From Pseudomonadota bacterium (GTDB lineage Bacteria > Verrucomicrobiota > Verrucomicrobiia > Limisphaerales > SXTU01), in NCBI GenBank assembly GCA_009924135.1, contig RFSE01000049.1:1-32894 (forward strand): a DNA stretch of 32,894 bases. Direction: 5' to 3'. The notes beneath the pieces were generated by a model. It saw only the letters and a program-made list of their open reading frames with translations, ran no database searches and was not told the origin of the DNA. How positions within the stretch are numbered: the first letter of the stretch is position 1; the number at the start of each line of letters is the position of its first letter. Both the position numbers and the translations under genes were made by a program. Positions 24,987-31,405 of this stretch are shown here, in pieces.

Positions 24987-25036
24987 CTTGTGGCGTTGTT
25001 GTATTCGGTCGCATTCTCAGTCAATCAGGACTTGAT

Positions 25037-25061
25037 GTGTGAGAGTGCGAGGGTGTGAGAG
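25037..25061. repeat. Left flank of four-helix-bundle gene, inverted repeat
   Basis: GTGTGAGAGTGCGAGGGTGT, then GAGAG, is a near reverse complement of 25495-25519 (20 of 25 positions). It ends one base before the ATG of the four-helix-bundle gene. Confidence 0.55.
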
Positions 25062-25062
25062 T

Positions 25063-25467
25063 ATGAGTGAAGAGGCGTTGAACCTTCGAAAGCCGCTGGT
25101 GAAACGGCACACGGACCTTGAGGTGTATCAGCTGGCGTTTACGGCGGCGATGGAGGTGTTCGAGTTGAGCAAGCGATTCCCCAAGGAGGAAACTTATTCG
25201 CTCACGGACCAGATGAGCCGGTCGTCGCGTTCCGTTTGTGCGAATCTCGCCGAAGCGTGGCGCAAGCGCCGCTACGAAGCCGCCTTCATCAGCAAGCTGG
25301 GCGAGTGCGAGGCCGAGGCCGCCGAGACGCAGACCTGGTTGCAGGTCGCCGTGCAGTGCGGTTATCTCGAACGCGAAACGGTCAAAAAGCTTTTCCAAGA
25401 CTACGATCACGTCATCGCCATGCTTGTGCGAATGATCACAAACGCCGACCATTGGACCATCAAATGA
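25063..25467 (+). CDS. Four-helix-bundle protein of the 23S rRNA-IVP (TIGR02436) family
   Basis: 134 residues. The ATG at 25063 is preferred over the GTG at 25039, which lies in the flanking repeat. It matches the family: KRHTDLEVYQLAFTAAMEVF, then FPKEETYSLTDQMSRSSRSV and ANLAEAWRKRRYEAAF, ending with a helix around CGYLERETVKKLFQDYDHVIAML. In other bacteria such proteins are encoded within intervening sequences of 23S rRNA genes; here it is outside rRNA. The molecular function is unknown. The gene is bracketed by an inverted repeat (25037-25061 and 25495-25519), which suggests that it moves as a small cassette. Its TGA overlaps the ATG of the next gene (ATGA). Confidence 0.87.
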   Translation: MSEEALNLRKPLVKRHTDLEVYQLAFTAAMEVFELSKRFPKEETYSLTDQMSRSSRSVCANLAEAWRKRRYEAAFISKLGECEAEAAETQTWLQVAVQCGYLERETVKKLFQDYDHVIAMLVRMITNADHWTIK

Positions 25468-26867
25468 CCTTGCGCCTTCTCTCCCTCTCCCCCTCCCTCA
25501 CACGCTCACACCCCCACACCTCCAATCGCCCCGGCGTCATCTATGCGATCCTCTTCAGCTCGCTGTCATGGCTCGGGATCGCATCGGCGGCGCTTGGGGC
25601 CGAAACTCCCGCCGAGCTGAAACTCACAGGGGACTGGGAGGTGAAGGTGTCCGTGTCTGGAGCGCGGACCGCCGAGGCGGTCGTGGTGGTGGCACCGCCC
25701 AAGGTCCTCACCGTCAGTGCGGAGAAATATGATTCCCTGCCGGTCTTCAACCCCAAGGCCGGTGGCTGGATCCGGGGTGCACAACTCCGGCCGCTCCGCG
25801 CGCAGGAGACGACAACCGCCGGATTGCTGGACCCGGACAGCCTCGTGCTGCGTGCCGGACCGGAGGCCGACGCGGCGACGTTCCGCAAGGGCACGGACTA
25901 CGAGGCGGACCTGGCCTGGGGCACGGTGGGCCGTCTCGCGACGGGCGGCATCAAGGAAGGCCAGCCGGTTTACGCGAGTTACCGGCACGTATTGCTCCGG
26001 CTCGACACCATCGTGGTCACGCGGGATGGCCGTATCGAACTGCGTCAGGGCGAGCCACGCGCGGCGGCGCCGGCGCCTCCCTCCGTGGGGCCGGGTGAGC
26101 GGCATCTGGCCAACGTCTGGCTGCCGGGACGCATTGCCAAGCTCGCGTCGGAACACCTGTTCCCAGTCCTCGAAACCGCTTATCCCGAACCAGCCAAACC
26201 CAGCCCCAGCCTGGCCGAATTGCGCGTACCCAAGGCACTCAAGAAGCTCCGCACCGGCGAACCCCTGCGGCTGCTCGCGTGGGGCGACAGCGTGACGGTG
26301 GGCACCTACGTGCCGGACCCGGCAAAGGAACGGTGGCAGGAGCAGTTTGTCGCGCGGCTGCGGGAGCGTTTCCCGCAGGCGAAGATCGAACTGATCACCG
26401 AGGCCTGGGGCGGACGCAACACCGGCAGCTACCTCAACGAGCCGCCCGGCAGCCTGCACAATTATCGCGAGAAGGTGCTGGGCGCGAAGCCGGACCTGGT
26501 CGTGTCCGAGTTTGTGAACGACGCAGGCCTGAGCCCGGCGGCGGTCGAGGAGCGTTACAGCAAACTGCTCGCGGATTTTCAGGGGCTCGGCGCGGAGTGG
26601 ATCATCCTGACGCCGCACTACGTCCGCCCGGACTGGATGGGCCTGAACCGCGAGCGGGAGATCGACAACGATCCGCGACCGTACGTCGCCGGCATGCGCG
26701 CCTTTGCTGCGAAGCACGAGGTCGCCCTCGCCGACGCTTCGCTCCGCTATGGCCGCCTCTGGCGGCAGGGCATCCCCTACAACACGCTGATGCTGAATTC
26801 GATCAACCATCCCGACCCGCGCGGGATGAAGATCTTTGCCGATGCGCTTATGGAGTTGTTTCCGTGA
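25464..26867 (+). CDS. Secreted SGNH/GDSL-family hydrolase
   Basis: 467 residues from the ATG at 25464, which overlaps the upstream stop by four bases. No later start is seen before the hydrophobic segment (about 26-45, IYAILFSSLSWLGIASAALG), so the first ~20 residues are encoded partly by the right flanking repeat of the four-helix-bundle gene. A beta-rich region (about 50-250) precedes the catalytic domain. SGNH blocks: LLAWGDSVTVG (GDS at 274-276), WGGRN (Gly 317-318), SEFVND (Asn352) and INHPDPRG (His449). It is probably an esterase; the substrate is unknown. The ATG choice is uncertain because of the repeat. Confidence 0.85.
   Translation: MTLRLLSLSPSLTRSHPHTSNRPGVIYAILFSSLSWLGIASAALGAETPAELKLTGDWEVKVSVSGARTAEAVVVVAPPKVLTVSAEKYDSLPVFNPKAGGWIRGAQLRPLRAQETTTAGLLDPDSLVLRAGPEADAATFRKGTDYEADLAWGTVGRLATGGIKEGQPVYASYRHVLLRLDTIVVTRDGRIELRQGEPRAAAPAPPSVGPGERHLANVWLPGRIAKLASEHLFPVLETAYPEPAKPSPSLAELRVPKALKKLRTGEPLRLLAWGDSVTVGTYVPDPAKERWQEQFVARLRERFPQAKIELITEAWGGRNTGSYLNEPPGSLHNYREKVLGAKPDLVVSEFVNDAGLSPAAVEERYSKLLADFQGLGAEWIILTPHYVRPDWMGLNREREIDNDPRPYVAGMRAFAAKHEVALADASLRYGRLWRQGIPYNTLMLNSINHPDPRGMKIFADALMELFP
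25495..25519. repeat. Right flank of four-helix-bundle gene, inverted repeat
   Basis: CCCTCACACGCTCACACCCC then CACAC; partner of 25037-25061 (20 of 25 positions as reverse complement). It lies inside the start region of the next reading frame. Confidence 0.55.
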
Positions 26868-26889
26868 ATCTTGAACTGCGCGATCTTCG

Positions 26890-28557
26890 ATGAGCATCAC
26901 GGAGCTGATCCGGCGCGTGGAGAACAAGGCATCTCCGGTTTCCGCCGGAGAGCTGGCATTGTTCGAATCGGAACTTGGCGCTCCGCTGCCGGAAGATTAT
27001 CGCGCGTTTCTGGTCGTAACGAACGGGGGCTATCTAGGGGGCAGCCTTTGGTTCACCGGGCCCACACCAGATGGCCAAGCTGCGGATGCAGGCCTACATC
27101 ACCTCGGCGGTTTGCGGGAGGAAAGCCACTTCTCCTTGAAGGCTAACCGTGCCGGTTATGCAGGTCGAATTCCCGAAGGTCTGATGTGGATTGCGGACGA
27201 CCCTTTTGGTAACGCGATTTGCATCGGTCTGCGAGGCTCGCACCGTGGGCATGTGTACTTCTGGGACCACGAATTGGAACCCGGCCCTGACACAAGGACC
27301 GGCCAACTTGAGACCGCCGGGAATATTACCCTGCTGGCCAACAGTTTTTCTGAGTTTGTCAGGCGCCTCATCGCGGACCACAACCAGCCTTACGAGGTGC
27401 CGAAGAAGATGCTCGAAGCCTTCGCGCTGAACAACCGGAGCGAGGTGAAGTTTTACAAGAAGCCTGGCTGGGAGTTCAAACAACGCGGCCAGTCAGGCCT
27501 GTGGATCAGCGAGTTGTTCCCGAAGACCGCCGAGTGCGCGGACGACCTGTGCCTCATCCGCTCGATGTTCAACGACCATGCGGACCACGCGCAGGCGACG
27601 CTGGGCATCCACACCGGCTCGGTGACCTTCACGCGGCCCAGCATGGGGGCGTGGGTGAGCTACGGCCTGGGCACGGAGAATGCGAATTTGCCAAGCTTCA
27701 TGGTCATTGCCCCCGCGATGCCGTATGCCGGTGCGCAGGTGTGGTCGGCGGATTTCCTGCCCGGTTGCCATCAGGGCACGCGCGTGGTGCCCGGCCCCGA
27801 GCCGGTGCCCAACATCAACCGCCGCATCACTGACGCGGAATTGCAGGAGATGGAACTGGGGCTCAGCGCGGCCTTCAACAAGAAGCATCTCCTCGCGCGG
27901 GGCAACGACGCGCAGCTCGCGGCGCGCATCAAGTCCTTCGAGACCGCCTACGGCATGCAGGCCGCCGCACCGGAGGCCTTCGATCTCACGAAGGAAACCG
28001 ATGCGACGCACAAGCTCTACGGGCTTGATCGCGGCAGCACGAAGGGCTTCGCGTGGCAGTGCCTGATCGCACGCCGGCTCGCCGAGCGCGGCGTGCGATT
28101 CATCGAGCTGATCGACACCGGTGCTTCCGGCAACTGGGACGCGCACGGTGACATGGCCGGCCACGCACCACTCGCGCGCAACGTGGACCAGCCGATGGCC
28201 GCGCTGCTGAAGGACCTCAAGAGCCGTGACATGTTGAAGGACACGCTCGTGGTGTGGGCCACGGAATTTGGCCGCACGCCGTTCAACACGGCGAAGGATG
28301 CGAAGGGCCGCGAGCACCACGCGCAGGCGTTCACTTGCTGGATGGCCGGCGGCGGGGTGAAGCCCGGCTTCAGCTACGGTGAGAGTGACGAGCACGGCAA
28401 CGCGGTTGCGGCCAACGGTGTCCATGTCCACGACTTCCACGCGACGATGCTGCATCTGTTGGGTTTCGATCACACGCGCCTCACTTACCGCCACGCGGGC
28501 CGGGACTACCGGTTGACGGACGTGTTTGGGAATGTGGTGAAGGATGTGATCGCGTAA
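26890..28557 (+). CDS. Chimera: SUKH (SMI1/KNR4) domain fused to truncated DUF1501 protein
   Basis: 555 residues. Residues 1-160 are a SUKH/SMI1-KNR4 domain: ELALFESELGAPLPEDYRAF, LVVTNGGYLGGSLWF, ADDPFGNAICIGLRGSHRGH, VYFWDHELE and a final LANSFSEFVRRL. SUKH proteins include immunity proteins against secreted toxins. From about residue 170-192 to the end it matches DUF1501: GWEFKQRGQSGLWISELFP, DDLCLIRSMF, HTGSVTFTRPSMGAWVSYGLGTE, DTGASGNWDAHGDM, VVWATEFGRTPF and GREHHAQAFTCWMAGGGVKPG. The usual DUF1501 beginning (Tat signal, then the GGPSH-type segment) is missing, so the protein would stay in the cytoplasm. Two 60-base samples of the SUKH part have 52-53% GC; two samples of the DUF1501 part have 62-67%. 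There is no stop or frameshift at the junction. Confidence 0.85.
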   Translation: MSITELIRRVENKASPVSAGELALFESELGAPLPEDYRAFLVVTNGGYLGGSLWFTGPTPDGQAADAGLHHLGGLREESHFSLKANRAGYAGRIPEGLMWIADDPFGNAICIGLRGSHRGHVYFWDHELEPGPDTRTGQLETAGNITLLANSFSEFVRRLIADHNQPYEVPKKMLEAFALNNRSEVKFYKKPGWEFKQRGQSGLWISELFPKTAECADDLCLIRSMFNDHADHAQATLGIHTGSVTFTRPSMGAWVSYGLGTENANLPSFMVIAPAMPYAGAQVWSADFLPGCHQGTRVVPGPEPVPNINRRITDAELQEMELGLSAAFNKKHLLARGNDAQLAARIKSFETAYGMQAAAPEAFDLTKETDATHKLYGLDRGSTKGFAWQCLIARRLAERGVRFIELIDTGASGNWDAHGDMAGHAPLARNVDQPMAALLKDLKSRDMLKDTLVVWATEFGRTPFNTAKDAKGREHHAQAFTCWMAGGGVKPGFSYGESDEHGNAVAANGVHVHDFHATMLHLLGFDHTRLTYRHAGRDYRLTDVFGNVVKDVIA

Positions 28558-29094: not shown

Positions 29095-30045
29095 CTATTT
29101 GTCGGCGACGGCGGGTTTGGGGGCCACGGGTTTGGGCTCCGCCTTTGCGGCAGGGACAGGCTTAAAATTCTTGGACTCCTCGTGGTAGTGGAGCCGCTTG
29201 TTCACCATCACTTCGCGCCCGGCCATCTCGAAGTCCAGAATCGTCGGCATCCAGGCGTTGGGATCGAGGCGGGTGCGGTCGAGGGTCATTTCAAATTTCC
29301 GCAGCACACCGGCGACGCCGCCGACCACCGTGACCTCTTCGGTGAGCCAGAATTTCAGCCGTGAGACCTCCCATTCCTCGGTGTCCACCCAGAGCTTGCC
29401 GGCCACCTTGTTCGCCACGCGGTCCGTCGGCTTTTTGACCGGAAGGTCCTTGCTGCGCGGGGTGAACTCCACCACCCAGGCCGGCCGGTCCCGCACGAGT
29501 TCCTGGCCGGTGATTTTGAAGGTGTAGCGGGCCAGCATTTCGTCGGTGAACTGCCAGGGCTTGTCCCGTTTCGAACCATCCGCTGAACGCCCACCCTTTT
29601 TACCACTGCGCACGGCGGCTTCGCGCTCCTCCTCGACCTTGGTTTCCTTTTCGTTCAGCAGTTGGCCATCCTTCTGGATGAGCCGGGCAAAGGGCACTCC
29701 GTTAATGGGGAAGCATTCCTGGCGCGACTGCTTGTGGTCGGTAATCTTGCCCTTGGCATCGAACTCCTCCAGCACCCGGATGCGGCTGAAAAGATACTTG
29801 GCAGCGGTGTTCTGCGAACGGTCCCACGTCGAGCGGGCCACGACGTTGGAAGAAAGCTGCTCGAAGGTGGGCGGGGTGATGGTATTGGTGGGTATGGAGC
29901 CGGGAGGAACGCCTGCAAAGCCCCCAATCCCAAGCTGCAAACCGCCTACTAACACCAGGCACAAGACTCCAAAACGCCACAGGCCGGGGCCAGTCGTTCG
30001 GACCTTGACCGGGCCTGAGGATGTTGGACTTGAAGCTTTCACCAA
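29095..30045 (-). CDS. Secreted protein resembling outer-membrane lipoprotein-sorting (LolA-like) fold
   Basis: 316 residues. After an N-terminal extension there is a signal-like segment (about 24-45, RFGVLCLVLVGGLQLGIGGF). The mature part has an alternating beta pattern: KYLFSRIRVLEEFDAKGKI, ARYTFKITGQELVRDRPAWVVEFTPR, GKLWVDTEEWEVSRLKFWL and VLRKFEMTLDRTRLDPNAWMP. This is the arrangement of LolA/LppX-type lipid-binding folds, with an inserted charged linker (about 130-165, Lys/Glu/Arg-rich) and a Pro/Ala/Lys-rich tail. Family assignment is by pattern only. It begins 6 bp after the stop of the NHL propeller gene, so it is the second gene of a two-gene operon. Confidence 0.68.
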   Translation of the reverse strand: MVKASSPTSSGPVKVRTTGPGLWRFGVLCLVLVGGLQLGIGGFAGVPPGSIPTNTITPPTFEQLSSNVVARSTWDRSQNTAAKYLFSRIRVLEEFDAKGKITDHKQSRQECFPINGVPFARLIQKDGQLLNEKETKVEEEREAAVRSGKKGGRSADGSKRDKPWQFTDEMLARYTFKITGQELVRDRPAWVVEFTPRSKDLPVKKPTDRVANKVAGKLWVDTEEWEVSRLKFWLTEEVTVVGGVAGVLRKFEMTLDRTRLDPNAWMPTILDFEMAGREVMVNKRLHYHEESKNFKPVPAAKAEPKPVAPKPAVADK

Positions 30046-30051
30046 GTATTC

Positions 30052-31140
30052 CTATGGCCGGATGACGCGCACCCGATGCGTCTCGCTGTCGCCGATGAAG
30101 ATACTCCCATCCTTGTCCGCCCACAAGCCGTGCAGGCGGGCGAGCTGGCACTTGAGCGGGTCACCCTCGGGGCCATCGCCCTTCTCGCCGGTGCCGGCGA
30201 CAAGTTCGAGCGTGCCTTTTTTCATGTCCACCATGCGGACGCTGTGACTTTCGGTATCGGCGAGATAGACGTTCCCATTGGGCGCAACCGCAATGCCCTT
30301 GGGACCGGACAAGGTGGCGTCCTTCGCCGGGCCACCGTGGCCGGTGAAGCCCTTCTTGCCCGAACCGGCGATGTGCCGAATTTTCCCGGCCTTGAGGTCG
30401 AACTTGAAGACCTGATTACCCTCGCGGGTCGCGAGCCAGAGATTCCCGGCGGCATCGAAGTCCAGCGAACGCGGGCCGTTCAGCGTCGTGCCAGTGATGG
30501 GTGCCCCATCCGGCGTCGGTCCGGCCTTGCCGGTGCCGGCGAACGTGCTGATGACGGTGGTTTTCATGTCCACCTTGCGAATGGCGTGATTCGCGATATC
30601 GCAGATGAAGAGGTCCCCGGCGGGATCGAACTGGATGCTGTGCGGCTGCTTCAACTGCGCGTCCTTCGCCGGGCCGCCGTCCCCGGAGTAACCAGGTTTG
30701 CCCGTGCCGGCAAAGGTGGTGATGATCCCGGTCTTCAGGTCCACCTTGCGGACGACATTGTTGCCCATGTCCACGATGTAGAGGTCGCCCTGTTTGTCGA
30801 ACCGGATTTCGTGCGGCAGGTTGAACGTGGCCTGCAACGCGGGGCCGCCGTCGCCGGTGTAACCCTTCTGGCCGCTGCCGGCGACGGTGTGAATCTTCCC
30901 GTCCGGCGTGACCTTCCGCACGCGCTGGCCGGTGTATTCGCAGAACCAGATGTTCCCATCCGGCCCGCGCACAACGCCGAAGGGATTATCGATCTGCGCC
31001 TGTGTGGCCGGCCCGCCATCGCCAGCGGAACCCTTCGTGCCATTGCCGGCAAAGGTGGAAATGGTGGCAGCAGAAGCAGAGGTGTAAATCAAGGTGTTGG
31101 CGAGCACAAGCAGGCCGAACCGGCGGAGCGATAGCGTCAT
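30052..31140 (-). CDS. Secreted NHL-repeat six-bladed beta-propeller
   Basis: 362 residues from the ATG at 31140, which gives a signal peptide (MTLSLRRFGLLVLANTLIYT...). Six blades of about 55 residues each open with a (F/V/I)AG(N/S/T)G motif: ISTFAGNG, IHTVAGSG, ITTFAGTG, ISTFAGTG, IRHIAGSG and LELVAGTG. Most are followed by a GDGGPA-type loop and an NHL strand such as GNIWFCEYTGQRVRKV or GDLYIVDMGNNVVRKV. Six blades make a complete propeller. Such proteins bind ligands or act as scaffolds; none is suggested here. The next gene downstream follows after 6 bp. Confidence 0.88.
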   Translation of the reverse strand: MTLSLRRFGLLVLANTLIYTSASAATISTFAGNGTKGSAGDGGPATQAQIDNPFGVVRGPDGNIWFCEYTGQRVRKVTPDGKIHTVAGSGQKGYTGDGGPALQATFNLPHEIRFDKQGDLYIVDMGNNVVRKVDLKTGIITTFAGTGKPGYSGDGGPAKDAQLKQPHSIQFDPAGDLFICDIANHAIRKVDMKTTVISTFAGTGKAGPTPDGAPITGTTLNGPRSLDFDAAGNLWLATREGNQVFKFDLKAGKIRHIAGSGKKGFTGHGGPAKDATLSGPKGIAVAPNGNVYLADTESHSVRMVDMKKGTLELVAGTGEKGDGPEGDPLKCQLARLHGLWADKDGSIFIGDSETHRVRVIRP

Positions 31141-31405
31141 GTTGAGGAAAACGTAACACAAATGCCTCCATAGCCAAGAAAGTAGGGGCGGCGGTGGATT
31201 ACCCGGATTAACACCCCGCGAACCAAACATGGGTGGCGGCAGGCATCCTGCCTGCCGTAGAGCCGGCGCGTCCCGCCCGGCGGGAGAAAACGTCCGGCCG
31301 CTTGATCCTGTGCGAACAACCTCAGGTCCTGGAACTTCTCACGCCCATCCGGGCGGCAAGATGCCTGCCGCCACGGCACACCGGCACCGCCATCAGCTCG
31401 TTTAC
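31141..31405. repeat. Spacer with dispersed palindromic repeat, family A copy 3
   Basis: The element proper spans 31233-31374. Its ends GTGGCGGCAGGCATCCTGCC (31233-31252) and GGCAAGATGCCTGCCGCCAC (31355-31374) are reverse complements at 19 of 20 positions. Its core is the reverse complement of copy 1 at about 35-120, with differences, so the two copies are in opposite orientation. The bases before 31233 and after 31374 show nothing else; the promoter of the NHL gene must lie in 31141-31232. Confidence 0.78.

Follow-up and report, generated by a model that had tools for sequence, protein, structure and literature searches.

The window analysed here, a stretch of 32,894 nucleotides, is a whole contig (C424) of a draft, probably verrucomicrobial genome of the Limisphaerales type (6.68 Mb in 490 contigs, 90.45% complete, 3.62% contamination). 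Among its genes (Table 1) is a forward-strand open reading frame at positions 26890-28557, which starts with ATG and comprises 555 codons without internal stops before the stop codon at 28555-28557. Its first part matched SMI1_KNR4 (SUKH, PF09346) on residues 16-158, covering profile positions 1-124 of 125 (E 1.6e-20; 74.4 bits against a curated cut-off of 25.4), and the remainder matched DUF1501 (PF07394) on residues 184-554, covering profile positions 34-390 of 390 (E 3.4e-127; 425.3 bits against a cut-off of 27). Since both Pfam matches are far over their cut-offs, a chance reading frame or a mistaken domain call was ruled out. NCBIfam yielded no family at E 0.1, the structure model of the fusion was poor (pLDDT 49.4), and a promoter and terminator scan returned no terminator and one weak minus-strand match.

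An initial annotation of this sequence had described a frame that passes from SUKH into DUF1501 without a stop or frameshift, and the 555 open codons bear this out. Both of its domains are present, but its boundaries (SUKH on residues 1-160, DUF1501 from about 170) needed correction: because the DNA of seven orthologues places the junction at 27363, DUF1501 homology runs from residue 159, and the boundary is at residues 158/159. The GC contrast that it reported (52-53% against 62-67%) is real but smaller, with 58.4% in the SUKH part and 65.0% in the DUF1501 part (GC3 62.7% and 87.2%). The value for the SUKH part is not extreme, as 8% of the window's 474-bp stretches are equally low.

In a Pfam scan of 16 window ORFs, the neighbour families were GDSL, IVP, phosphoesterase/propeller and NHL; no recombinase was found among the 16, and neither a toxin gene nor a further SUKH gene among the 15 other than the fusion.

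Table 1. Coordinates of the fused gene, its parts and its neighbours in the window.
Feature	Position	Strand	Basis
IVP gene (23S_rRNA_IVP, PF05635), ORF listed from 25039; not part of the fusion	25063..25467	+	Pfam E 3.9e-31
GDSL-like lipase/acylhydrolase gene, start approximate (ORF listed from 25236)	25314..26867	+	Lipase_GDSL_2 E 2.1e-12
Stretch without counterpart in compared relatives; carries the SUKH frame	26868..27362	+	L044 match ends at 26867, resumes at 27363
SUKH (SMI1_KNR4) domain, codons 1-158, essentially full length	26890..27363	+	Pfam; stand-alone SUKH relatives
Fusion junction, third base of codon 158 (...SFSEFVR-RLIADHN...)	27363..27363	+	Orthologue DNA and protein comparison
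DUF1501 part, residues 159-555, without 76 N-terminal residues of the G010 orthologue	27364..28554	+	Pfam; orthologues
Downstream neighbour	29095..30045	-	Best Pfam E 0.075, below cut-off

The GDSL-DUF1501 locus in related genomes

Seven of the ten genus-mates of the window's genome have an orthologue of the DUF1501 part, recognised where residues 155-191 matched within a frame coding for DUF1501; G001, G002 and G009 had no such match. In six of these seven (G003, G005, G006, G007, G008 and G010, with the G005 contig ending inside the gene) the protein has a leader with RR, which marks Tat export. These six orthologues read ...VIFLHMSGGxSHVDSWDYKP-RLIADHN..., while the window reads ...SFSEFVR-RLIADHN..., and in all seven the common DNA begins at 27363. 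Over the common part, the DUF1501 protein of the window is 97% identical to the orthologue of G010 (L059). To the left of the fusion, DNA of the GDSL gene matches relatives from about 25600, and in G010, G003, G005 and G007 the match continues up to 26867 or 26868; GDSL protein identity is 79-92% in L059, L060, L062, L064 and L066. The GDSL gene also lies upstream of DUF1501 in G003, G005, G007, L064 and L066. Only 14 bp separate the GDSL stop from the start codon of the intact DUF1501 gene in G010, and this spacer measures 9 bp in L064 and 283 bp in L062 (from G003). The 495 bp between the breakpoints in the window stand for 241 bp in G010, namely the 14-bp spacer and 227 bp of gene, or 76 DUF1501 codons less one base. 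Since conserved sequence picks up again on both sides, it is unlikely that the contig is a random chimera. The ends of the insert showed no direct or inverted repeat of 12 bases or longer over 26780-27480, the longest exact word being 10 bases between insert and DUF1501 part and 8 bases between insert and the intact G010 leader.

SUKH was found at this locus in the window only, among the relatives compared. The initial annotation had pointed to relatives that might hold a full DUF1501 gene and a separate SUKH gene at this position; full DUF1501 genes are indeed there, but a separate SUKH gene is not, nor did the relatives searched contain an intermediate in which SUKH accompanies an intact DUF1501. 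From a contig scan that gave 337 relatives we took the best 80, and none of these 80 had SUKH fused to DUF1501. At E<1, their loci contained only two short weak SUKH matches (E 0.040 and 0.56), neither of them within the DUF1501 gene. An RR stands 30-75 residues ahead of the GGxSH motif in 77 of these best 80; the exceptions are L058 (from G004) and two records, L082 and L113, in which the match starts at or near a contig end. With SUKH as the query, matches were obtained in 9 of the 320 order genomes sampled and in 14 of the 387 sampled from the phylum, two samples that may overlap and that both count the window's genome. In neither sample did another match lie in a frame of sufficient length to be fused to DUF1501; the longest open frame apart from the window's had 324 aa. 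A SUKH match within a 340-aa frame in G007 was rejected as a second fusion, since that frame overlaps the rhodanese gene in another frame. The literature searched, part of it represented by title or abstract, yielded no report of a SUKH-DUF1501 fusion, nor a paper mentioning both SMI1 and DUF1501. As far as the assembly goes the fusion is real; it is also a derived state, and a single case within what was searched. Public records of metagenome-assembled genomes with close orthologues (L058, L059 and L063) are titled Proteobacteria, Akkermansia muciniphila and Klebsiella pneumoniae, and are probably misnamed bins.

The junction between GDSL and DUF1501 is variable among relatives, with an IVP gene in L060 and L066 and the 283-bp spacer in L062; the IVP gene ends at the DUF1501 start in L060, L063 and L066. 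An IVP element as the cause of the fusion was not supported, because the window's copy precedes the GDSL gene and is not at the breakpoint. In this genus, inverted short tandem repeats often flank the IVP genes (PF05635; window 25036-25520; L153-L182), with a motif that varies by copy (for example GTGTGAGAGTGCGAG, GATTGCC, TTCAGTGA, GTGAGAAAG, GAGGATAGAA, TTGATGG). There were 44 IVP matches in 10 of 11 genomes, from which 30 loci were taken and 26 had usable flanks. In 19 of the 26 the flanks reached the 99th percentile (27) of 2000 random spots, with 7 below 27, and 15 exceeded the top random score (33). With flanks exchanged between loci as the reference, no more than 5 of 26 reached the 99th percentile (50), perhaps because related IVP copies share motifs. 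The IVP element has the look of a mobile element related to 23S rRNA intervening sequences; in an abstract-level search, the only relevant literature was work on the Coxiella IVS.

The SUKH half and other SUKH genes of the genus

Nine of 14 stand-alone SUKH relatives match the fusion as far as residue 157 or 158 and end 3-10 residues beyond that point, which argues that the SUKH domain is essentially whole; in the other five the match ends at residues 128-130. The nearest relatives in the order and phylum have 28-46% identity over the matched stretch. Plasmids gave no DNA match that could indicate a donor, and their protein matches came from 23 records, with 26-36% identity among the 15 records listed. 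In viral contigs no donor was found by peptide pattern or by junction DNA pattern. Among solved structures there was no convincing match to the SUKH part, the best (E 0.02) being an unrelated enzyme, and this part has no other home in the window's assembly.

SUKH proteins, which occur in polymorphic toxin loci, have been characterised as the immunity superfamily that faces the widest range of toxins (PMC3482391), and orphan SUKH immunity proteins (rAID systems) are reported to protect against T6SS effectors in Bacteroidales (PMC12247911). Like SUKH-1 immunity genes, the fused gene has a full-length SUKH-1 domain in a single-gene unit. Unlike those genes, it has no adjacent toxin, immunity array or recombinase among the scanned ORFs, and it lacks its own stop and continues into DUF1501. 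A SUKH domain inside a larger polypeptide also recalls polyimmunity proteins, in which SUKH is repeated or fused to SuFu or Imm33 (PMC3482391), whereas the partner in the window is an exported-enzyme-like domain rather than an immunity domain, and there is one occurrence.

Pfam gave six SUKH matches in 4 of the 11 genomes of the genus. On contig 98 of G003, an ABC ATPase gene and the gene of its permease enclose SUKH; these two genes abut in G006, G008 and G002, are separated by 489-727 bp of other DNA in G001, G004, G005, G007 and G009 and by 1439 bp of other DNA in the window's genome, and the site had no match in G010. On contig 829 of G007, SUKH lies between rhodanese and NifU-like genes, which have 106-678 bp of other DNA between them in the six relatives measured, and are about 1.5 kb apart in G004 and about 1.9 kb in G000, the genome of the window. 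At these two junctions (L209-L218 and L197-L206) the flanking genes meet without a gap or have SUKH or other DNA that contains open frames between them, depending on the species. Another SUKH gene starts 13 bp downstream of a short-chain dehydrogenase gene (G003, contig 3), and the second SUKH match of the window's genome is tail to tail with a neighbour gene that we take to be guaA. These varied placements suggest that single SUKH genes come and go at operon junctions in this genus. In G010 (L193, 56-1857), an ORF ending in an LHH nuclease domain has a SUKH gene immediately after it; judged by domain content and order, this is the layout of a toxin-immunity pair.

The DUF1501 half and its history

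The fused protein shares profile positions 34-390 of 390 with the DUF1501 (PF07394) twin-arginine proteins of Verrucomicrobiota and Planctomycetota. It differs from these secreted proteins, and from its orthologues, just as the initial annotation had noticed: the twin-arginine leader and the first conserved core segment (VIF...GGxSH....D) are both absent, and SUKH forms the N-terminus. The lost part includes columns that are fully invariant in 29 intact relatives, among them R3 and R4 and also V57, I58, F59, G64, G65, S67, H68, D73 and P76 (L059 numbering). With these residues lost, the DUF1501 half is probably unexported and inactive. We take the DUF1501 family to have a sulfatase-like relationship. 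Matches of its profile to sulfatases were weak (E 0.0061-0.84), and in a fold search with a poor model of the intact orthologue (pLDDT 59.0, pTM 0.68) the top 50 PDB matches were mostly LtaS/LtaP and sulfatases (E 5.3e-4 to 1e-2). By way of this weak relationship, the lost invariant residues may include active-site residues. The earlier suggestion of a cytoplasmic protein with an incomplete alkaline-phosphatase-like core agrees with the loss of leader and invariant residues and with the weak sulfatase/LtaS-type matches.

The orthologous leader was not found elsewhere in the window's genome, the best match being a paralogue (69% over 52 aa), and the search of that genome turned up no near-identical DUF1501 copy able to confuse an assembler. 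There were 108 matches to the DUF1501-containing fusion protein in this genome, itself included, and DUF1501 is therefore a very large paralogous family there; the closest other match is 63% identical, from residue 187 onward.

A tree of 13 sequences placed G004 as the sister of the window, with support of 1.000. In G004, the same DUF1501 gene (L058; RFVF01000068.1, 4957-5012) has a 172-bp out-of-frame deletion between MNRRTA and GGxSH; MNRRTA is kept, and the open DUF1501 frame is leaderless. The left flank of this gene is unlike that of the window, and the right flank is common to both (79.5% DNA identity over 29162-31160). Over the common DUF1501 part the two differ by 93 synonymous and 9 nonsynonymous changes (dN/dS 0.022). 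Polarised with six outgroups, and omitting sites that could not be polarised, the changes numbered 35 synonymous and 2 nonsynonymous on the window branch and 24 and 3 on the G004 branch. The neutral expectation beside 35 synonymous changes is about 86-113 nonsynonymous ones, which limits any functionless period to at most about 5-7% of the window branch, a rough figure from a Poisson upper limit of 6.3. The near absence of change in the DUF1501 part leaves two options, a fusion of very recent origin or a core that remains under constraint, and the picture is complicated by the separate out-of-frame loss in G004.

Origin and meaning of the fusion

We consider it probable, at about 0.7, that an orphan SUKH gene landed in the GDSL-DUF1501 operon junction and decapitated DUF1501. 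Of the two readings offered by the initial annotation, this corresponds to the debris of a SUKH gene that entered a DUF1501 gene by insertion or recombination, which is supported by GDSL and DUF1501 neighbours that are as in relatives, with SUKH only here; the other, a stable new fusion, is not supported, as no second genome with the fusion was found, although the conservation of DUF1501 is still compatible with stability. Insertion is further supported by the breakpoints, 26867/26868 and 27362/27363, against the intact GDSL-DUF1501 pair of G010, by the RR leader in 77 of the best 80 relatives, by the stand-alone SUKH relatives that end just past the junction, by the GC3 contrast, by the lack of an orthologous leader elsewhere in the genome, by the 35 to 2 polarised changes and by the SUKH genes that stand alone at other junctions in the genus. 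Against it stand the missing donor and intermediate, the lack of repeats of at least 12 bases and of a recombinase in the 16 scanned ORFs, the distance to the nearest SUKH relatives (28-46% identity) and the unremarkable GC of the SUKH part. The orphan immunity-type gene would have entered the junction between the GDSL-lipase gene and the secreted DUF1501 gene, and the same or a later event would have deleted the spacer along with the 5' end of DUF1501, which comprised its start codon, its twin-arginine signal and 76 codons less one base. The SUKH stop, and probably the last few SUKH codons, would have been lost in the same or a later event, and that SUKH and DUF1501 ended up in frame would be a matter of chance, with a probability of 1 in 3. 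Any protein made from it would be cytoplasmic; its SUKH domain may still fold and bind a toxin, and the DUF1501 remnant would not be exportable and would lack conserved core residues. The fusion is probably accidental and recent, but the very low dN/dS is equally compatible with a maintained DUF1501 core.

A maintained fusion is therefore possible, and less likely than insertion of an orphan SUKH gene. SUKH might serve as a binding module on a working or scaffold cytoplasmic DUF1501 core kept by selection, and the open frame of 555 codons, the low dN/dS with its 35 to 2 polarised changes, and the leaderless and likewise conserved (24 to 3) DUF1501 frame of G004 all fit such a protein. We nevertheless hold it to be unlikely, given that one genome only among those searched has the fusion, that residues invariant in 29 intact relatives are missing, that an in-frame join has a 1 in 3 chance and that the G004 lesion is out of frame. 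The contig count and contamination of the draft genome raise the matter of an artefact, in which the assembler joined a SUKH allele to a DUF1501 allele or a minority-strain contig was recovered. This appears improbable, as both flanks are the correct neighbours of the same locus in relatives, repeats that could guide a false join are below 12 bases, and no alternative location for the SUKH part or for the orthologous leader was found in the assembly; chimerism by way of sequence outside the assembly keeps a small probability. The sister relationship of the window and G004 bears on a different order of events, namely that the leader was lost before their split and that SUKH joined a leaderless DUF1501 which was by then cytoplasmic or in decay. 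Both sisters lack the leader, and the only other leaderless proteins among the best 80 are those beginning at or near contig ends; however, the breakpoints differ, as G004 kept MNRRTA, lost its 172 bp out of frame and has another left flank, and two independent losses fit equally well, so that we give a common loss little weight. Slightly less probable still is that the DUF1501 core moved to the cytoplasm and was kept there, with both sisters leaderless, the core under strong purifying selection in both and one of them gaining SUKH where its export signal had been; if true, such retention would represent a new kind of SUKH-tethered cytoplasmic protein.

On the preferred reading, insertion of an orphan SUKH gene, a gene fusion has apparently been caught near its birth, with the pre-fusion arrangement kept in sister species, and it suggests a way in which mobile immunity-type genes that settle in operon junctions can remove the head of the gene that follows. 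Should the fused protein prove to be maintained, it would be a case of SUKH being taken up by an enzyme-like partner away from toxin immunity, and of a formerly exported protein being re-sited to the cytoplasm.
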